A stretch of DNA of 24,026 nt from a virus: positions 1-24,026 of IMG/VR virus record IMGVR_UViG_3300030060_006600. One strand, 5' to 3'. Of this stretch, positions 5,622 through 18,810 are shown in pieces. Under the pieces are notes generated by a model. The model worked only from the letters and a program-made list of their open reading frames with translations. It was not told the DNA's origin and ran no database searches. Within the stretch, counting starts at the first letter, position 1, and each line of letters opens with the position of its first letter. The translations under genes and the position numbers were made by a program.

Positions 5622-6869
5622 ATGGCAGAGTTTATCGCCAACAATACAACAAATTTAAAAAAACTTTTTTTAGATAGAATATTGTATGAAGCAATTTTTA
5701 ACCTACCGGAAGACTTCGGCGAATTTTTCACTAACGCCAGTGGTATAAAGGACTACTGGTCTTTCGAAAACCTACTTTATGGCAAGGTTGATAGGGGTTT
5801 TATACCAATACGTGTCAATAAATTATCCCTGATTCCTCTCTCGAAAGAAGATAATGCTTATCTTTTACCAGAGCCAGCCGCCGCATTTCAAAAAATGCAA
5901 AACCTGTTTACTCAAAGAACTAGAGCTGGCGCACTCGCCGAAGATGCATACTTGAACAACATTAAAATTTTTAGAGCCTATCATGATGCTGACGTAGACT
6001 ACAATTTGTATGTCACCCAACTCATAACAAATTTCAACAATTCTTTGATTTCCGCACAAAGAGAAAATGAAATAATAGATGTCAAGTCTTATTTTGAAAG
6101 GATGTTCACCTATATATTAGAAAGTGCCGAAATAGAGTTTATAACCAGAACGGCATTTTATATGTCTAACAAAGTTTCAGCTTTATCCTCTGGGATGTCT
6201 TTAGAAATATCCGATTTAGATCCATCAAACAATGCTGACAAGCAGATCTTTTTGGATTCCCCGAACTTTGAATTCTATAGGGAGGCGGCAGTGAATTTTG
6301 GATTCCTTATAGACAAAAATATACCATGGAGATTAAATTTTGATTTATCATCGCCAGTGAATAAAAAAGAATTACCAAACTTATTTGACGGAACATCTTT
6401 GGCAGACGTATATTTATCTTCGAGGTTTATTAAACTTGCCAATTCTGACATCACACAGCTTACATCACTAATGCTTGTTGGGTATAATACTTTTGTAGAA
6501 AAGAGGCCCGTTCGACGAGAGGGTATATGTTCTTTCAGTCGCAAAAAACACACCATAGAAGAGATAGAAAGAGATATATTCAATTCGGCATATTTTTTGA
6601 AAAAATACATCCATATAAAAAATAAAGAAAACAATCTTGTGTATTCCAATAACGAATTGGAAAAAATAATTTTTAACGCAACTGATCTTGACACAAATGC
6701 ATCGTTATTATATTTGGAGTCTAAATTTAATTTGCCTTATTACTTCGAAGGATCAACGACATATACCTTGATTAAGAAAAAACTTTCAACAAATAAAGAT
6801 TTTTCACTTGACAAATTTGATCAACATGTTAAAATGTTAATTAAGAAGAAGATTGAAAGTATATATTGA
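5622..6869 (+). CDS. Unrecognised tail-region protein, 415 aa
   Basis: I do not recognise this family. The ATG at 5622 has a good ribosome site (AAGGAAG). The protein is soluble-looking, mostly helical, rich in N, F, Y and K, and has no signal peptide, membrane helix or catalytic motif that I can see. The N-terminal part has short conserved-looking aromatic stretches (DYWSFENLLYGK, residues ~44-55). The C-terminal ~120 residues become increasingly lysine-rich. It follows the hub candidate by 15 bases and ends 17 bases inside the polymerase reading frame, so it is the last gene of the tail cluster and may be translationally coupled to the polymerase. Position suggests a baseplate or tail-fibre-attachment component, but that is inference only. 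Confidence 0.45.
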   Translation: MAEFIANNTTNLKKLFLDRILYEAIFNLPEDFGEFFTNASGIKDYWSFENLLYGKVDRGFIPIRVNKLSLIPLSKEDNAYLLPEPAAAFQKMQNLFTQRTRAGALAEDAYLNNIKIFRAYHDADVDYNLYVTQLITNFNNSLISAQRENEIIDVKSYFERMFTYILESAEIEFITRTAFYMSNKVSALSSGMSLEISDLDPSNNADKQIFLDSPNFEFYREAAVNFGFLIDKNIPWRLNFDLSSPVNKKELPNLFDGTSLADVYLSSRFIKLANSDITQLTSLMLVGYNTFVEKRPVRREGICSFSRKKHTIEEIERDIFNSAYFLKKYIHIKNKENNLVYSNNELEKIIFNATDLDTNASLLYLESKFNLPYYFEGSTTYTLIKKKLSTNKDFSLDKFDQHVKMLIKKKIESIY

Positions 6870-8061
6870 GGCTCTTTTGTTATTTCAAACCTTAGATGAT
6901 AAAAAGGAATGTGTTGGAATATACCAAGATGGTATACTGCTCTTTAATGAGCCGCTGCCAGTCGATATTTCAGAAACATGGTCTTATTCATCATTCTTAG
7001 AAAATCGAGATATTCAGTACGCTAAAATATACTGTGAAGGAAAGCAACTTAAAGAAGTGTGCCCAGAGGCTCTAATCCCGCGTCTGGAGCGCGTAGAAAA
7101 AAGATTCAAGGCTTACGTTAAATCTTTTATTACATCGCAAATATCGCTAAATGAGAACTGTTTTTACGATTTAGTTCCAAAGAGTTTTCTTCTTGAATGG
7201 TGTTATATAAAAGATTTAATCTGCAAGCACGTTTTTGAAACCTACAAAAAGCCAGATAACTATGACTACATGGTCGATCTCATACAAGCCCTAGAAGACA
7301 TTAAGCACACAAGGCTAAACATCGACAAAAAAGAATTGTCATTATATAGGGCAAAACATAGAAAATTTTCCCAAACACTAAGAAAGATCGAGCCTTACTG
7401 TAAGTTCAATGTGTGGGGAACCAAGACAGGAAGATTAACAACAATAAAAAATAGTTTTCCTATTTTGACATTGGACAAAGAATTCCGACCAATCTTAAAA
7501 CCAAACAATGATTACTTTGTAGAACTAGACTTTAACGCCGCAGAACTAAGAACCTTGTTGTCTTTGCAGGGAAGGTCACAGCCAGACGGAGACATACACG
7601 AGTGGAACATTAAAAATGTTTTTAAAGGAAAGTTGACACGAGATGAGGCCAAGAAAAGAATCTTCGCTTGGTTATATAATCCGGAAAGTCATGATCCCCT
7701 TTGTGAGCATGCCTATGGCAGAGAATCAGTGGTACAAAAGTACTTCGCACAGGGACAAGTGACAACCTTTTGGAACAAGGTTATTCCTTCCGAGGAAAGA
7801 ACTGCCCTAAACTATATTATTCAATCAACTTGTGCAGAAAATGTATTGAGACAAATGATTAAGTTATCTAATTATTTAAAAGGTTGTAAATCGTATGTTG
7901 CTTTCCCGGTCCATGATTCTGTTGTACTTGACCTATCGGTCGAAGACAAAGAAAGACTCCCAGAATTGTTAAATATCTTCTCCAACACAGAGCTTGGAAA
8001 ATTCAAAGTTAATGTTAGTGTCGGAAAGAATTTTGGAAATCTTAAAAAGTTAGAGGTTTAA
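6853..8061 (+). CDS. Family-A DNA polymerase, polymerase domain only (no 3'-5' exonuclease)
   Basis: A 402-residue protein carrying the ordered PolA motifs: GTKTGRLT (189-196), motif A ELDFNAAELR (224-233), motif B RDEAKKRIFAWLYN (263-276), the ALNYIIQSTCAEN helix (318-330) and motif C VHDSVVL (353-359). The two metal-binding aspartates are present (D226 and D355), but the acid after the second one, glutamate in the usual HDE, is serine here. E. coli PolI and T7 gp5 have an exonuclease domain before the palm. Here only ~150 residues precede the thumb and no exonuclease motif is visible, so proofreading must come from another gene or be absent. The TTG start at 6853 is the longest reading and overlaps the upstream gene by 17 bases; a weak AAGAAG lies before it. 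The precise start is uncertain, the polymerase call is not. Confidence 0.85.
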   Translation: MKVYIEALLLFQTLDDKKECVGIYQDGILLFNEPLPVDISETWSYSSFLENRDIQYAKIYCEGKQLKEVCPEALIPRLERVEKRFKAYVKSFITSQISLNENCFYDLVPKSFLLEWCYIKDLICKHVFETYKKPDNYDYMVDLIQALEDIKHTRLNIDKKELSLYRAKHRKFSQTLRKIEPYCKFNVWGTKTGRLTTIKNSFPILTLDKEFRPILKPNNDYFVELDFNAAELRTLLSLQGRSQPDGDIHEWNIKNVFKGKLTRDEAKKRIFAWLYNPESHDPLCEHAYGRESVVQKYFAQGQVTTFWNKVIPSEERTALNYIIQSTCAENVLRQMIKLSNYLKGCKSYVAFPVHDSVVLDLSVEDKERLPELLNIFSNTELGKFKVNVSVGKNFGNLKKLEV

Positions 8062-8062
8062 A

Positions 8063-8890
8063 TTGAACATTATAGGATTGGGAAGTGCAGGTTGCAAAAT
8101 AGCTGAAGCCTTTGCAGAGTACCCACAATATAAAATTTTTAAAATAAATGTTGACATCGAGGGGGAGAACTGCTATAGTATACCTATGCTTGAGTCGGCT
8201 GAGGGATACGAGTCGCACTCATACCCAAAGATTAAAACATTTTTTAAAGGAGTAAAGGGGGAAACCGTTTTTATTATTGGTGGCGGTAGCAAAGTATCTT
8301 GCGGTTCTTTGAGAATCCTAGAAGCGATCAAGAACAGAAAAATTTCAATTTTATATATTAAGCCTGATACCTCAATGTTGGATGAAGAATCTTTAATGAT
8401 TGATAAGTTAGTATACAACGTAATGCAAGAATACACACGATCTGGTGTGTTTGAGAGCATGATAATCATTTCAAATCCGGAAGTAGAAAGAGTTATTGGC
8501 GGCGCACCTGTCATCGGCTATCACGATAAACTAAACGAGGCGATAGTACCAACCATCCATATGTTAAATTACTTTCAAAAGAACAAGGCAGTTTCTGGAA
8601 TAATTCCAAAAGCAAAAGAAACTCACAGGATATTCACTGTCGGCCTCTTCGATACGCAAAAAAATGAAGAAAAAATGTTTTTTTCCCTTGACAACCCCAG
8701 AAATAAGTGTTATATTTATGGAGTAAGTGAAGATAAACTAAAAACCGACAAGGATTTTATGAAGAAAGTAAAAAATCAAATTGAATCAAAAAAAGAACAA
8801 AACGTAAGCATAGCATATGCAATTTATTCTACGGAATATGAGTATGACATTGGATATGTTATTTCTAGAACACCTCACATTCAAAAATAA
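8063..8890 (+). CDS. Divergent FtsZ/tubulin-like GTPase
   Basis: A 275-residue protein starting at TTG 8063 with GAGG six bases upstream, right after the polymerase stop. The order of elements follows the tubulin/FtsZ GTPase domain: an N-terminal strand and loop IIGLGSAGCK (3-12, T1), INVD (28-31, T2), a glycine signature IIGGGSKVSCGS (71-82, in place of GGGTGTG), a strand with IKPD (95-102, like FtsZ VTKPF), IIISNPE (134-140, like FtsZ IVIPNDR), and a helix YHDKLNEAIVPTIHMLNYF (153-171) matching helix H7. The signature loop is longer than normal. The catalytic T7-loop acid (FtsZ N-L-D-F-A-D) is not recognisable after residue 175, so GTP hydrolysis on polymerisation may be altered. Known phage relatives (PhuZ, TubZ) build filaments for DNA positioning; a similar role here is inferred. 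A plain Rossmann nucleotide-binding protein is the main alternative. Confidence 0.65.
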   Translation: MNIIGLGSAGCKIAEAFAEYPQYKIFKINVDIEGENCYSIPMLESAEGYESHSYPKIKTFFKGVKGETVFIIGGGSKVSCGSLRILEAIKNRKISILYIKPDTSMLDEESLMIDKLVYNVMQEYTRSGVFESMIIISNPEVERVIGGAPVIGYHDKLNEAIVPTIHMLNYFQKNKAVSGIIPKAKETHRIFTVGLFDTQKNEEKMFFSLDNPRNKCYIYGVSEDKLKTDKDFMKKVKNQIESKKEQNVSIAYAIYSTEYEYDIGYVISRTPHIQK

Positions 8891-8965: not shown

Positions 8966-9742
8966 ATGGGATTAGACATCGCAAAAATTCGAGCACGACT
9001 CGATTCAGTAAAAAACAACGGTAAAGCTGGAGGATCATTCTGGCGACCGAAAGACGGAACACAATCAATCCGAATTGTTCCTACACAGGACGGCGACCCG
9101 TTCAAAGATTATTGGTTTCACTACAATTTGGGACCAGACCAAAAGGGCGGTCTTTTGTGCCCTAAGAAAAATCACGGAGATGAATGTCCGATCTGTGATT
9201 TTAAAGATAAGCTCTGGAAAGAGTTTAATGATAGTCAAGATCAGGACACAATGAAGATGGCAAAAGATCTGTCACCTCGCCAACGTTTCTTTTCACCAGT
9301 GCTTGTGCGCGGCGAAGAAGCAGAAGGACTTAGAATTTGGGGCTATGGCAAAGAGGCTTATACTTCTTTACTAAATCTAGTTCTCAATCCAGAGTATGGT
9401 GATATCACAGATATCGAAGAAGGTACAGACTTGAGCCTCACTTATGGAAAGCCACCAGGCGCATCCTTCCCCAAGACAACCTTGACACCGCGTAGGCGAA
9501 CTAGCCCCTTGTGTGACGAAGCTGTCGGCGGGGATAGCGAATGCAATCGTCTTTTGGAAAATATGCCAAAGTTCGACACGGTATTCCAAGTAAAAAGTAC
9601 AGCAGATGTACAAGCGGCACTCGACGGCTATATGAGCCACCTTGAGGGTAAGCACGAAAGTGATCAGGCTCCTCAAGAATTAGTAACTGACGACGATACT
9701 CCAAGTGTCCTAGCTGCATTCAACGAGCTAAGTGGGAACTAA
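8966..9742 (+). CDS. Single-stranded DNA-binding protein, T4 gp32-type with zinc site
   Basis: A 258-residue protein with ATG at 8966 behind ACAGGAGAAA. Residues 26-60 (FWRPKDGTQSIRIVPTQDGD, then FKDYWFHYNLGP) and the following CPKKNHGDECPICD correspond to the gp32 core. Candidate zinc ligands are H52, C65, C74 and C77. The spacing H-x12-C-x8-C-x2-C is almost the same as in T4 gp32 (H64, C77, C87, C90). The C-terminal ~50 residues are acidic and flexible (VTDDDTPSVLAAFNELSGN), as expected for the tail that recruits replication partners. It coats single-stranded DNA during replication and recombination and should work with the UvsX, helicase and polymerase encoded nearby. It is followed by a repeated hairpin at 9757, which fits a separately abundant transcript. 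Confidence 0.88.
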   Translation: MGLDIAKIRARLDSVKNNGKAGGSFWRPKDGTQSIRIVPTQDGDPFKDYWFHYNLGPDQKGGLLCPKKNHGDECPICDFKDKLWKEFNDSQDQDTMKMAKDLSPRQRFFSPVLVRGEEAEGLRIWGYGKEAYTSLLNLVLNPEYGDITDIEEGTDLSLTYGKPPGASFPKTTLTPRRRTSPLCDEAVGGDSECNRLLENMPKFDTVFQVKSTADVQAALDGYMSHLEGKHESDQAPQELVTDDDTPSVLAAFNELSGN

Positions 9743-9814: not shown

Positions 9815-10297
9815 ATGACAACAGAAAATACAAACACAACAACTGCCACCGCTGGCACCACCGCTACTGTTCATTATCGAGGAACTTTAGCAGATGGGTC
9901 TGAATTTGATAGTTCTTATTCTCGCGAAGAGCCAATTATTTTTACATTGGGTTCTGGACAGATGATTCCGGGATTCGATAATGCAGTGGATGGAATGACT
10001 GTGGGCGAAACTAAAACAGTTACCCTTTCTCCAGATCAGGCATACGGAGAAATTAACCCAGAAGCGCAGACTACTTTTCCCAAGTCTGGATTTCCAGAAG
10101 GATTAGAATTGGTTAACGGAATGCCTGTCCCTCTCCGTACTCCAGACGGACAAACTATTGTTGGTCGCCTCACAGAGCAACACGAAGAAACAGTAACCAT
10201 TGACCTAAACCATCCATTAGCAGGAGAAACGCTTCAATTTGAAATTGAACTTGTAGAAGTAACAACAAACACAACCGGACAGGAAATCGCTACCTAA
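9815..10297 (+). CDS. FKBP-type peptidyl-prolyl cis-trans isomerase, SlyD-like
   Basis: A 160-residue protein with ATG at 9815 behind AGAGGAAA. After a low-complexity T/N-rich N-terminus (residues 1-16) comes a typical FKBP fold: TVHYRGTLADGSEFDSSY (18-35), then FTLGSGQMIPGFDNAVDGM (43-61) and TVTLSPDQAYGE (68-79). The segment to ~125 matches the insert-in-flap domain of SlyD/FkpB proteins, and IDLNHPLAGETLQFEIELVEV closes the barrel. The SlyD histidine-rich metal tail is absent. Such enzymes speed proline isomerisation and act as chaperones in the cytoplasm; there is no signal peptide. It lies between two copies of the repeated hairpin. Phage-encoded FKBPs are uncommon; a role in folding virion or replication proteins is inferred. 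Confidence 0.88.
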   Translation: MTTENTNTTTATAGTTATVHYRGTLADGSEFDSSYSREEPIIFTLGSGQMIPGFDNAVDGMTVGETKTVTLSPDQAYGEINPEAQTTFPKSGFPEGLELVNGMPVPLRTPDGQTIVGRLTEQHEETVTIDLNHPLAGETLQFEIELVEVTTNTTGQEIAT

Positions 10298-14719: not shown

Positions 14720-15838
14720 ATGCCTAAGAAAACAAAAACATCTGCTGGAAAAATTTCTTTAGCGGATATGAGAAATGCAATTAATAAAAGAGCGGGCATG
14801 AATGTCGCTCATGATCTAAATGATGAAAACCCCACAGAAGTAACACAGTGGATTCCTACTGGGTCACGATGGCTAGATTCTATTGTTTGCAAAGGCAAAT
14901 ATGCTGGGATCCCCGTTGGTAAGGTTTCAGAAATTGCAGGTCTTGAAGCCACTGGCAAGTCATACATGGCTGCACAAATCGCAGCAAATGCACAAAAGAT
15001 GGGAATTGATGTTGTCTATTTCGATTCGGAATCTGCAATTGATCCTTCTTTCCTCACGAATGCTGGCTGCAATTTAAACAACCTTCTTTATGTCCAAGCA
15101 CAGTCTGTTGAGTTTGTGCTGGAGACAATCGAAGAACTTCTGGCCTCTGAAAACCAATTTTTATTTATTTGGGACTCCTTGGCACTGACCCCTGCAATCA
15201 CAGAGGTTGAAGGCAGCTTTGATCCGATGTCACAAATGGCTATGAAAGCCAGAATCCTAGCTCGTGCAATGTCCAAACTCACAGTTCCAATCGCCAATGC
15301 AAACGCCACGTTGCTAGTTTTGAATCAGCTAAAGACAAATATCACCAGAAGCCCATCTGAAGCTATGACAACGCCATATGTGACTCCCGGCGGAAAAGCA
15401 ATGAATTATACCTACTCTCTCCGGGTTTGGCTAACTGGTCGAAAAGCAAAGGCGAGCTTCGTCTTGGATGACAATGGTTTCCGAATCGGCTCTGAAGTCA
15501 AAGTAAAACTTGAAAAGTCACGCTTCGGCACTGCCGGTCGTCAATGTAATTTCCGAATCCTGTGGGGTGGTGATGACATAGCAATTCAAGATGACGAATC
15601 TCTTTTCGATGCTGTAAGCGGCTCAGATAGAATTCTTCGCTCTGGAGCATGGTATACTATGGTGTTTGATGACGGAACAACAGAGAAATTTCAAGCTGCA
15701 AAGTGGGTCGAAAAAATGCAAAATGACAAATTCCGCCAACAGGTTTATAAGATCATGGATGAAGAAGTTATTAGAAAGTTCGACACGCGCCAAGGAAACG
15801 CTGCCGATTTCTATGATTCTGAAGAAGAGACAGACTAA
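14720..15838 (+). CDS. uvsX: UvsX/RecA-family recombinase
   Basis: A 372-residue protein with ATG at 14720 behind AAAAAGGAG. It shows the RecA core: P-x-G-S-R-W-L-D (47-53), Walker A GLEATGKS (74-81), VVYFDSESA (95-105), Walker B-like FLFIWDSLALTP (~147-158), and LLVLNQLKTNI followed by PYVTPGGKAMNYTYSLRVWL (motif and sensor region, ~197-235). It forms filaments on single-stranded DNA, pairs homologous strands and drives recombination-dependent replication. The gp32-type SSB upstream is its expected partner. The C-terminus is acidic (DSEEETD). Its length is close to T4 UvsX (391). A UvsY-type mediator was not recognised in the window. Confidence 0.9.
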   Translation: MPKKTKTSAGKISLADMRNAINKRAGMNVAHDLNDENPTEVTQWIPTGSRWLDSIVCKGKYAGIPVGKVSEIAGLEATGKSYMAAQIAANAQKMGIDVVYFDSESAIDPSFLTNAGCNLNNLLYVQAQSVEFVLETIEELLASENQFLFIWDSLALTPAITEVEGSFDPMSQMAMKARILARAMSKLTVPIANANATLLVLNQLKTNITRSPSEAMTTPYVTPGGKAMNYTYSLRVWLTGRKAKASFVLDDNGFRIGSEVKVKLEKSRFGTAGRQCNFRILWGGDDIAIQDDESLFDAVSGSDRILRSGAWYTMVFDDGTTEKFQAAKWVEKMQNDKFRQQVYKIMDEEVIRKFDTRQGNAADFYDSEEETD

Positions 15839-15846
15839 TTGTTAGT

Positions 15847-16440
15847 GTGAATGACAAGATAAAGAAAATTAAACTTGATAAGCTTGTTTCAGAAATGAAT
15901 TTCTTGGAAACAGAGCTTAAATACCAAAAGACAATTGCCGAAACTGCTGTTCCAGATTTTAATTTAGAAGTCACAAAAGAACTAGAAAGGAGAGGCGCAC
16001 AACGCCCTCCTGCACAAAAAGCAGCGCCCAATAGAGAACAGAGAAGGGCAGCAAAAAAAGCATCCAAAGGTACAAGTAAAATATTCAAACAAATAGCAAA
16101 GAAAATTCATCCAGATAAATTATCCAATCAGGGTGAATCAGATGAGCAAGATAAGAAAGAAAAATTCTTAGAGGCCACGGAAGCAAAGGATGAAGATAAT
16201 TCTTTAAAACTTTATTCAATCGCTCTGGAGTTAGGCTTGTCAAGTATCGAGCTAGAAAAAGAAGATATAGAGCACTTCGAAGAGCAAATATCTAAAGTAA
16301 AAAAAGACATAGCATCGCTAACAACTTCTTGGGTTTACGTTTGGGGAATACAAGACTCGGAAGAAACGAAACAATCCATCATAAAAAACTTTGTTGATTC
16401 AGTAACAAAGACAGACGACAAACAAGATAATTCGGAGTAA
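15847..16440 (+). CDS. J-domain (DnaJ-like) protein
   Basis: A 197-residue protein read from GTG at 15847; an internal ATG at residue 17 is the alternative and neither has a strong ribosome site. Residues ~76-130 contain KGTSKIFKQIAKKIHPDK, with the invariant HPD tripeptide at 88-90, preceded by a basic helix and followed by a helix with KKEKFLEATEAKDED. This is the helix II-HPD-helix III pattern that stimulates DnaK ATPase. No glycine/phenylalanine or zinc region follows; the rest is charged coiled-coil-like sequence with SWVYVWGI near 170. It lies between uvsX and the 5' nuclease gene, so it may bring host DnaK to replication or recombination complexes. Confidence 0.65.
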   Translation: MNDKIKKIKLDKLVSEMNFLETELKYQKTIAETAVPDFNLEVTKELERRGAQRPPAQKAAPNREQRRAAKKASKGTSKIFKQIAKKIHPDKLSNQGESDEQDKKEKFLEATEAKDEDNSLKLYSIALELGLSSIELEKEDIEHFEEQISKVKKDIASLTTSWVYVWGIQDSEETKQSIIKNFVDSVTKTDDKQDNSE

Positions 16441-16442
16441 AA

Positions 16443-17417
16443 ATGTCTAAAAGATTAATGGTGATAGATGCCCTAAATGCATATTTTAGAGCGTATATCG
16501 TCAACCCCAGCCTTTCAGAAAGTGGCGAACCGATTGGTGGCTACAAGGGCTTTATAAAAATCATACAAAAGCTATGCAGAGAAATGAAGCCAGATGAGGT
16601 TATAATTGCCTGGGATGGCGCAGGCGGCTCACAAAAACGCAAAGCCACTAATAAAAATTATAAAGAGGGTCGAAAACCAATTAGGCTCAATCGAGCAGTC
16701 CGAACTCTCACTGAAGATCAGGAGATGCAAAACAAGGTATGGCAGCAACACAGGCTTATGGAGATGTTAAATGAAATGCCATTTATACAACTTATTAGTG
16801 ATGGCATTGAGGCAGACGATATTATTTCCTATGTGGTTCAAAATAGAAAATACAAAGGCTGGCAAAAGGTAATTATTTCAAGTGATAAGGACTTCTTTCA
16901 GCTTTGTGATAATGAAACTATTCTCTACAGACCAATACAAAAAACATTTGTAAACAAGCCCAGAATAATAGAAGAGTTTGGAATCCATCCTACTAATTTT
17001 GCCATGGCTCGCGCCATCGCTGGCGACAAGTCAGACAATCTTGATGGCGTTCGTGGTGTTGGGCTCAAGACCATTTCGAAAAAGATGCAGTTTTTTGCAA
17101 AAGAAGAGTCTGTAACATTCGAAGATCTTTTTGAATTCTGTGAGAACGACAATACTGGTCTAAAAGCCTTTACATCTATTCTGGAAAGCAGAAAAACAAT
17201 CGAGGATAATTACAAGATTATGCAGTTATACTCCCCTGCTATTTCAATCCAGACAAAAAATAAAATACAATATGCATTAGATAACTTTGAGCCACTGTTT
17301 AACAAAACAGAAGTGCTAACAAGAATGAAAAAAGACGGATTTGGTACTTTGAATATGGATTCTCTTTTTGCTCACTGTAAGAGAATCTCAAGTAAAATAA
17401 ACAAATCAAAAGTTTAG
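16443..17417 (+). CDS. rnh: 5'-3' exonuclease / RNase H (FEN-type, T4 rnh-like)
   Basis: A 324-residue protein with ATG at 16443 behind GGAGTAAAA. The acidic metal-binding residues fall in the expected blocks: MVIDALN (D9), IIAWDGAG (D58), DGIEADDIIS (E123, D125, D126), ISSDKDFFQL (D148, D150) and AIAGDKSDNLDGVRGVGLKT (~190-209), the last being the helix-hairpin-helix segment. Basic residues SQKRKATNKNYKEGRKP (63-79) match the helical arch. It removes RNA primers and flaps from lagging strands, working with gp32-type SSB. It begins two bases after the J-domain gene and ends just before a consensus promoter. Confidence 0.88.
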   Translation: MSKRLMVIDALNAYFRAYIVNPSLSESGEPIGGYKGFIKIIQKLCREMKPDEVIIAWDGAGGSQKRKATNKNYKEGRKPIRLNRAVRTLTEDQEMQNKVWQQHRLMEMLNEMPFIQLISDGIEADDIISYVVQNRKYKGWQKVIISSDKDFFQLCDNETILYRPIQKTFVNKPRIIEEFGIHPTNFAMARAIAGDKSDNLDGVRGVGLKTISKKMQFFAKEESVTFEDLFEFCENDNTGLKAFTSILESRKTIEDNYKIMQLYSPAISIQTKNKIQYALDNFEPLFNKTEVLTRMKKDGFGTLNMDSLFAHCKRISSKINKSKV

Positions 17418-17419
17418 GC

Positions 17420-17448
17420 TTGACAGATTCTTCTTGGCGTGATATATT
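17420..17448 (+). promoter_or_regulatory. Sigma-70-type promoter for the helicase gene
   Basis: TTGACA (17420-17425), a 17-base spacer and TATATT (17443-17448), starting three bases after the previous stop. The bases from the -10 box onward (TATATTAA...AAACATC) resemble those at the bL12-like promoter, but the structured leader is absent. Confidence 0.82.
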
Positions 17449-17466
17449 AAAAACATCGGAGGATTG

Positions 17467-18810
17467 ATGTCTAAAGAAGATTTTAGTCGTTATGGAAAAG
17501 ATTTTCAAGAAAGCCTATGCCATCTAGTTTTAATTGATAGACCATTTGCAGATCAAATATTTGAAGTTTTAGATATCGATTTTTTGGAATTAAAGTATCT
17601 ACAAGTTTTTGTAAAGCTAATCAAGGACTATAGAGAAAAATATCCAGAACACCCTTCAGAAGACCGAATGAAAACCATAGTTCGAACACAGATCTCGGAC
17701 GAACTTGAGTCCGTCCAGACAAGAGTTAGGGATTTTCTAGCTAGAATATACCGCACCGAAATCGAAGGGTCGGATTACATTAAGGCAACAGCGTTAGATT
17801 TTTGCAGAAAGCAAAACTTAAAAAAAGCAATGCTCAAGTCTGTAAAACTTTTAGAAAACCACTCTTTCGATGAGATATCTAGCGTCATCAATGAGGCCAT
17901 TGTTCTTGGTTCTGATTCTAATTTTGGTCATGATTATATTAAAGACTTTGAGCAGAGATTTCTTTTTAAATCTAGAAATCCAGTAGCCACGGGATGGCAA
18001 GAGGTCGATAAAATAACCAAGCAAGGTTTAGGCAAGGGCGAGCTTGGTGTTGTAATAGCCCCTACCGGAGCCGGCAAGAGTATGGCGCTCGTCCACTTAG
18101 GAGCCAAAGCACTGATCGCTGGAAAAAATGTAATATACTATACCTTGGAGTTATCTGACACTGTTGTGGGATCGAGATTTGATAGTTGTATTACTAATGT
18201 TCCGCTTGGAGATTTACCAGATTTTAAAGATGAAATTTATGAAAAGATTGAAGGTCTTGAAGGAAAATTAATCGTTAAAGAATATCCAACAAAGTCTTCA
18301 TCACCTGTGACTTTGAAGAATCATTTAGAAAAAGTTACCAAAAGAGGTTTCAAACCCGACGTTATTATTGTCGATTATGCAGATCTTTTGAGACCAACTT
18401 CTGGATTAAGAGAGAAAAGACACGAATTGGAGACTATTTATGAACAGCTTCGTGGCTTGGCGCAAGAGTTCGAATGTTGTCTTTGGACAGCCAGCCAAAC
18501 TAATCGTTCTGGATTAAACGCCGAAGTTATAACAATGGAATCTATCTCGGAGGCTTTCAATAAATGTTTCGTCGCAGACTTTATTTTTTCTATTTCCAGA
18601 ACAGCAGAGGACAAGCTGAATAACCAAGGGAGAATCTTTATTGCTAAAAATAGAAATGGTCCTGATGGATTAATATTTCCTATTTTTATGAGTACGAACA
18701 ACATTACCATTAAAGTATTGCCAAGTACCGGAGAGACAATCGGAGATGTCGAAAAAGACGCGAAGAAAAGGCAAGAAAAGAAGCTTCTAACATTATATAA
18801 GAAAAAGTAA
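17467..18810 (+). CDS. Replicative DNA helicase, DnaB/gp41-like
   Basis: The ATG at 17467 is chosen over the TTG one codon upstream because CGGAGG lies seven bases before it. The protein has 447 residues. The N-terminal ~155 residues are helical (primase-interaction type domain). The RecA-like domain starts at VATGWQEVDK (~174) with Walker A APTGAGKS (198-205), NVIYYTLELSD (~224-234) and Walker B VIIVDYADLL (~300-309), then TASQTNRSG, where Q is the sensor glutamine. It unwinds the fork as a hexamer and should partner the polymerase and SSB in this window. A separate primase gene is not seen here. The C-terminus is a basic tail (KKRQEKKLLTLYKKK). Confidence 0.88.
   Translation: MSKEDFSRYGKDFQESLCHLVLIDRPFADQIFEVLDIDFLELKYLQVFVKLIKDYREKYPEHPSEDRMKTIVRTQISDELESVQTRVRDFLARIYRTEIEGSDYIKATALDFCRKQNLKKAMLKSVKLLENHSFDEISSVINEAIVLGSDSNFGHDYIKDFEQRFLFKSRNPVATGWQEVDKITKQGLGKGELGVVIAPTGAGKSMALVHLGAKALIAGKNVIYYTLELSDTVVGSRFDSCITNVPLGDLPDFKDEIYEKIEGLEGKLIVKEYPTKSSSPVTLKNHLEKVTKRGFKPDVIIVDYADLLRPTSGLREKRHELETIYEQLRGLAQEFECCLWTASQTNRSGLNAEVITMESISEAFNKCFVADFIFSISRTAEDKLNNQGRIFIAKNRNGPDGLIFPIFMSTNNITIKVLPSTGETIGDVEKDAKKRQEKKLLTLYKKK

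Follow-up and report, generated by a model that had tools for sequence, protein, structure and literature searches.

A predicted minimal tubulin without a T7 loop encoded in the replication gene block of uncultured phages

We describe a family of minimal tubulin/FtsZ-like proteins whose gene is a constant part of the replication block in phages of a large uncultured group. Its representative is encoded at positions 8063-8890 (+ strand) of the window, the 24,026-nucleotide stretch of viral DNA analysed here (IMG/VR record IMGVR_UViG_3300030060_006600). We propose, with a probability of roughly one in two, that it is a core nucleotide-binding protein of the replication module, which would form a stable or otherwise-switched scaffold or filament for the viral replication machinery. 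The phage tubulins described so far come mainly from nucleus-forming jumbo phages and plasmid-like phages and serve there to move or position DNA. The family presented here is separate from these and is without the elements that are held to be necessary for hydrolysis and protofilament contact. Two questions follow: which functions are left to a tubulin fold that has no T7 loop, and whether any tubulin can work in the service of a replisome.

Results

A conserved gene outside the current family libraries

The gene (8063-8890, +) encodes 275 aa from a TTG start, and a single base separates it from the upstream ORF for a family-A DNA polymerase (6853-8061, +). Comparison with three close relatives gave dN/dS values of 0.05-0.11, which indicates purifying selection. 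A first scan of IMG/VR returned 21 full or partial relatives, and later profile scans returned 387, then at least 567 and then at least 577 candidate loci. On the grounds of these selection values and of the relatives found by both kinds of scan, we regard the ORF as a real gene.

Among 50,697 phage records, no convincing relative of the minimal tubulin was found; a tblastn match in a human-gut phage (29% over 28% of the query, E 0.05) was too weak and was excluded as a relative. The adjoining polymerase had 0 matches at E 0.001 in the same records. With a weak partial match for the one protein and none for the other, the lineage is essentially uncultured. A literature search limited to open-licence PMC papers found no earlier report of the family.

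Searches with the minimal tubulin matched 0 Pfam and 0 PHROG families, and neither the protein nor a profile retrieved anything significant from the PDB sequences. When 88 members were searched singly against Pfam, PF00091 (Tubulin) appeared in 2 of them, with a best E of 0.044. Comparison of the family profile with FtsZ of 12 genomes by hhalign gave a score of 33.4 (E 0.0011 for this single comparison), spanning T1 to the start of H7. The controls stayed at or below 20.1 in 25 trials with shuffled-column profiles and at 14.0 with the reversed profile, and the polymerase gave E 0.14. This sequence signal to FtsZ is thus modest, lies above the controls and agrees with the structure predicted below. 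The hhalign comparisons with the single PhuZ of 201phi2-1 and with a second phage tubulin family, which is described at the end of this section, were not significant, and the PhuZ family models (phrog_4733 and PF22334, TubZ_C_2) gave no match.

The predicted fold and the profile comparison support the assignment of the protein to the tubulin/FtsZ superfamily, as a new minimal subfamily. A preliminary description of this DNA had suggested a new branch of the family, to be checked by profile-profile comparison; both the comparison with FtsZ and the position outside all Pfam and PHROG families, those of PhuZ included, agree with this suggestion. Current family libraries overlook a common viral tubulin.

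The predicted fold comprises both tubulin domains

An AlphaFold2 model based on 128 homologues, in an alignment that reaches down to ~35% identity, had a pLDDT of 96.2 and a pTM of 0.93. It supersedes an earlier model from 18 close homologues (pLDDT 59), the C-terminal half of which was unusable. From the larger alignment, the protein is predicted with high confidence to adopt the full two-domain tubulin/FtsZ fold, comprising the GTPase domain, helix H7 and the C-terminal activation domain. VIA-align of the model over residues 1-275 gave Z 24.6 with CetZ, 23.0 with TubZ and ~21 with FtsZ and tubulin. The best 50 PDB matches found by Foldseek were all FtsZ or TubZ (E ~1e-13); solved PhuZ structures are absent from these 50, which reflects the number of matches considered and is no sign of a differing fold. 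Among viral predicted structures, A0A6J5RW92, an FtsZ-like protein of a phage, was one of the best matches, together with a number of phage tubulins, one of them the PhuZ of phage Noxifer (BFVD, E 5e-7).

Weak matches to TrkA_N, seen in 19 of the 88 members with a best E of 6e-5, raise the question whether a plain NAD(P)-binding Rossmann protein may have been taken for a tubulin through its GLGxAG motif. This is scarcely credible in the light of the model, which spans both tubulin domains (pLDDT 96) with Z 21-25 to CetZ, TubZ, FtsZ and tubulin chains over residues 1-275, and of the Foldseek matches, all of which belong to FtsZ or TubZ. We therefore rejected a Rossmann or TrkA identity, for which there are weak profile matches only and which the AlphaFold2 model contradicts. 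The preliminary description had proposed a tubulin/FtsZ-like protein beside the DNA polymerase and had named a simple Rossmann fold as the result that would speak against it; its proposal is borne out by the model and by the single base that separates the two genes.

Conserved nucleotide-pocket positions and a compressed T4 loop

The ordered T1-T5-like loops and the H7-like helix that had been noticed in the sequence follow each other in that order in the model, with S1-T1-H1 at residues 2-17, S4-T4-H4 at 68-87, S5-T5-H5 at 94-126, S6-T6-H6 at 132-145 and H7 at 153-172. The T1 nucleotide loop and the start of H1 (8075-8104, +; residues 5-14, GLGSAGCKIA, consensus GLGxAGCxIA) were aligned by hhalign to FtsZ GVGGAGCN. 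In the 128 sequences, G7 is invariant and G5, L6, A9, G10 and C11 are conserved in at least 95%.

The T4 phosphate loop (8279-8311, +; residues 73-83, GGGSKVSCGSL, consensus GG[SA]GxISxASL) is degenerate. Across the 128 sequences G74, G76 and S79 are conserved and L83 is invariant; the tubulin signature GGGTG[ST]G is absent and a partial motif remains, GG[SA]GxIS in the family consensus. In the hhalign alignment GG--GSKVSCGS stands against FtsZ GEGGGTGSGAS with two residues missing, so that the loop is compressed rather than stretched, and the earlier account of GGGSKVSCGS as a stretched glycine signature has to be revised.

The segment formed by the end of S5, T5 and helix H5 (8354-8440, +; residues 98-126) contains the invariant residues Y98, Q122 and R126, and S127, just past H5, is invariant too, as is Y23. 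The T6 asparagine N138 (8474-8476, +) and, in the core helix H7 (8519-8578, +; residues 153-172), N158 and H166 do not vary among the 128 sequences. By hhalign, N138 aligns with an asparagine of FtsZ and N158 with a position in FtsZ H7, both of which contact guanine in FtsZ. The conservation of the pocket positions G7, N138 and N158 suggests that the minimal tubulin binds nucleotide.

Loss of T7 and H8 and a reduced C-terminal domain

A loop (8579-8629, +; residues 173-189) without helix or conserved acid takes the place of T7 and H8. The model contains no helix between the end of H7 at residue 172 and the start of S7 at residue 190, and no position between residues 173 and 200 is acidic in more than ~77% of the 128 sequences. 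The most acidic positions, 197 and 199, lie at the end of strand S7 and not at the position of T7. In the FtsZ set, both T7 aspartates, D225 and D228, are invariant. The lack of a T7-loop catalytic acid, first read from the window's own sequence, is thus a feature of the whole alignment and is accompanied by the loss of H8.

The C-terminal activation domain (8630-8887, +) is reduced to S7 (190-197), S8 (214-222), H10 (223-242), S9 (249-257) and S10 (263-270). A short hairpin replaces H9, and in the GTPase domain the T2-H3 region (H2/T3) is trimmed. Residues R189, T192, G194, F206, Y217, Y219, Y259 and Y265 of the C-terminal domain are conserved family-wide. Acids are conserved elsewhere in the protein, namely E47, E50, D29, D102, D210 and D229, and these could in principle stand in for the T7 acid.

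In other tubulins, T7 and the base of H8 take part in the longitudinal interface (PMC3678025), which makes a non-polymerising accessory factor a serious rival to a scaffold or filament. The minimal tubulin would then be a monomeric or dimeric subunit of the replisome, controlled by GTP or dNTP and serving the short family-A polymerase or the single-strand DNA-binding protein (SSB). The loss of T7 and H8 and the trimmed H2/T3 region are what one would expect of such a factor. It would also fit two observations described below, namely that the tubulin is closely linked to the polymerase and diverges along with it, and that in 19 loci a small gene, MazG-like by eye only, separates the two. Most characterised members of the tubulin superfamily assemble, however, and the C-terminal domain is conserved throughout the family, as expected of an interaction surface. 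On balance we hold a non-polymerising subunit to be rather unlikely and favour an assembling protein.

The minimal tubulin is fixed between polymerase and SSB

The polymerase upstream of the tubulin (core ~395 aa; PF00476 E 2e-13, phrog_17 E 8e-18) has family-A motif residues that are invariant in 17 relatives. While its motifs are recognisable, its N-terminal half contains no recognised exonuclease domain. At ~395 aa in nearly all relatives, it is unusually short for a family-A polymerase. The next gene downstream of the tubulin encodes a gp32-like SSB (8966-9742, +; PF08804 E 6e-13, phrog_1192 E 9e-27). The rest of the replication and recombination block (14720-18810, +), the order of which is conserved among the compared loci, encodes UvsX (14720-15838, +), a 197-aa protein, a 5'-3' exonuclease (16443-17417, +) and a DnaB-like helicase (17464-18810, +). 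Inside the block there is also an FKBP-type peptidyl-prolyl isomerase (9815-10297, +; PF00254 E 3e-26), which occurs in 26 compared loci. Just upstream of the polymerase lies the gene for a protein of ~415 aa (5622-6869, +) that belongs to no Pfam or PHROG family and is represented by 90 ORFs in the compared loci.

In a neighbourhood sample of 129 loci, made up of the window and diverse relatives, the genes follow the order tape measure, LysM-like baseplate protein, hub-like protein, unknown protein, polymerase, tubulin, gp32-like SSB, in some cases FKBP, then UvsX, exonuclease, DnaB and ribonucleotide reductase. The polymerase is found directly upstream of the tubulin in 86 of the 129 loci, with ORFs that frequently abut or overlap, and the SSB directly downstream in 105; most of the remaining loci have one or two small intervening genes or a contig end. 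To avoid a choice of loci by the tubulin itself, a second sample was fetched by the polymerase alone. All loci of this sample with enough downstream sequence (138/138) carried the tubulin, followed by the SSB in 125, these loci being the best-scoring relatives of two queries, from which distant lineages may differ. The divergence of the tubulin follows that of the polymerase (r 0.81), DnaB (0.78) and SSB (0.70) more closely than that of the neighbouring hub-like gene (0.58). A single copy of the minimal tubulin is present in each of ten related records, which are 147-204 kb long. A role at the site of replication had initially been suggested by a single neighbouring gene; the link now extends to a polymerase-tubulin-SSB block that is fixed over more than 100 diverse loci.

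This genomic setting also bears on the idea that the protein is a compact FtsZ mimic, which would cap or poison host FtsZ and so block division during infection. Its fold is similar to that of FtsZ, and phages often target FtsZ, as with Kil, Gp0.4 and Icd (PMC3961180, PMC13423816, PMC11897509). The known phage inhibitors of FtsZ are, however, small and unrelated proteins. A fixed place in the replication block and co-divergence with the polymerase would moreover be unexpected for a host-takeover gene, and we consider a mimic quite improbable.

In 19 loci, a small ORF of ~100-129 aa lies between the polymerase and the tubulin (for example L044:848-1225, +). By eye only, this ORF resembles a MazG-type nucleotide pyrophosphohydrolase (YNKLVRDKIPQII); it has no Pfam or PHROG match.

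A second tubulin family and a bacterial-genome match

One of the long relatives (G046; record IMGVR_UViG_3300025131_009739) encodes a second tubulin/FtsZ-like protein of 364 aa (L393:2390-3481, -), with a GGGGGTGS motif, a T7-like FDSKDL motif and an hhalign match to FtsZ at E 2e-10. Among its neighbours in L393 are a protein with an amidase domain and one of 237 aa. This second family occurs in at least 107 viral loci (including L396-L475) and had no match in the phage records; an alignment of 71 copies shows conservation of GGGGGTGS and of the FDSKDL aspartates.

The only match of the minimal tubulin in a bacterial genome is a polymerase-tubulin-SSB-UvsX fragment (L154:7505-12864) within the 'chromosome' of a candidate division WOR-3 MAG (CP070664). 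The short fragment adjoins a stretch of N and is flanked on either side by bacterial genes. It is probably a mis-scaffolded phage contig, and for this reason no host can be assigned from CP070664.

Discussion

Relation to known tubulins

The closest solved fold is that of CetZ (PDB 3zid, 4b45, 4b46; Z 24.6, rmsd 2.8 Å over 254 residues), an archaeal tubulin-like protein with 14% identity to the minimal tubulin. CetZ chains have 330-342 residues compared with 275 in the minimal tubulin, which unlike CetZ has no T7 or H8 and a degenerate T4 loop. TubZ (PDB 4ei7, 2xka; Z 23.0 over 271 residues) is also a tubulin of mobile elements and shares the fold, with chains ~100 residues longer. TubZ partitions DNA together with a DNA-binding partner in plasmid and phage segregation, whereas the fixed neighbours of the minimal tubulin are the polymerase and SSB genes. 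FtsZ shares the fold as well (Foldseek E 1e-13) and aligns at the profile level over T1, T4, T6 and H7, at ~10% identity. In comparison with FtsZ, the T4 loop of the minimal tubulin is two residues shorter and has fewer glycines, and the T7 aspartates, H8 and H9 are missing.

PhuZ is phage-encoded like the minimal tubulin, and the Noxifer protein matches it in structure. In PhuZ, the C-terminal tail and H11 bind the next subunit (PMC7950403). The minimal tubulin has neither a PhuZ-type H11 nor the tail, as its model ends with S10 and five further residues, and it differs from PhuZ in having no T7 acid. PhuZ is non-essential, and 24% of nucleus-forming phages lack it (PMC11724907); the minimal tubulin, by contrast, was found in every informative locus. 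In the ten long relatives, the PhuZ profile phrog_4733 detected nothing, though it produced matches in E. coli and B. subtilis. Chimallin (phrog_4795) was likewise absent from these ten records, which are separate from the 61-kb record that holds the window, and was found in the control 201phi2-1. The absence of both chimallin and PhuZ from the long relatives suggests that they do not use the known spindle and nucleus system, and we see no sign that they are nucleus-forming phages (Chimalliviridae).

These comparisons bear on the possibility of a cytomotive filament of the PhuZ or TubZ type, which would move or centre phage DNA or capsids and hydrolyse GTP by means of a displaced catalytic residue. 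Many phage tubulins studied to date work in this way (PMC7950403) and have the same fold, and one of the conserved acids E47, E50, D210 and D229 could replace that of T7. Yet T7 and H8 are absent, and T7-loop mutants of PhuZ form non-dynamic filaments (PMC7950403). The dispensability of PhuZ (PMC11724907) also contrasts with a protein that is present in every informative locus and tied to replication genes, and no match to the TubZ_C_2/PhuZ C-terminal domain was obtained. A cytomotive role is therefore unlikely in our view.

A possible scaffold for the replication machinery

Our preferred reading remains a nucleotide-binding scaffold or filament of the replication module. Here, the minimal tubulin would bind guanine nucleotide via T1, T4, T6 and H7, and binding would control its self-assembly or its docking at the replication machinery. 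Canonical GTP hydrolysis is unlikely, because within a protofilament it depends on a T7 acid supplied by the adjoining subunit, and no subunit has one to offer here; the assemblies may instead be stable, or be switched by another acid or by a partner. An analogy is provided by α-tubulin, on which GTP stays unhydrolysed. Made beside the polymerase and the SSB, the protein would hold or position the viral replication machinery, as a scaffold or a filament, and would not be a dynamic spindle of the PhuZ type. Since mutation of the T7 loop renders PhuZ filaments non-dynamic (PMC7950403), a natural tubulin without T7 is expected to be stable and not cytomotive, if it polymerises at all.

Several points weigh against this reading. 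Gene order may mirror the timing of operon expression instead of physical contact, and a protein that has lost T7 and the base of H8 may be unable to polymerise. Nucleotide could be bound less well because of the degenerate T4 loop, and a displaced acid (E47, E50, D210 or D229) may allow GTP hydrolysis after all. More tentatively, and at somewhat less than even odds, we suggest that the protein is a T7-less, nucleotide-switched tubulin integral to the DNA replisome, which partners the polymerase and the SSB throughout this large uncultured lineage. If so, it would be the first tubulin to work with a DNA polymerase and an SSB and not in division, segregation or transport.

A precedent for a phage cytoskeletal protein that acts in this way is the AlpC/AlpA system of prophage CGP3, which is required for efficient viral DNA replication (PMC4446434). 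The likeness is one of function, as AlpC has an actin fold, possesses its own co-transcribed DNA adaptor (AlpA) and is not homologous to the minimal tubulin.

Both tubulin families described here may be present in one phage. Among 17 further large records with the second tubulin, 4 also contain the minimal family, so that the two occur together in G046 and G051-G054, at least five large phages in all; in many other records the second tubulin occurs without the minimal one, and among the long relatives of the phage that holds the window, the majority carry the minimal tubulin alone. Some phages thus have two tubulins, one with the canonical catalytic motifs and one without.
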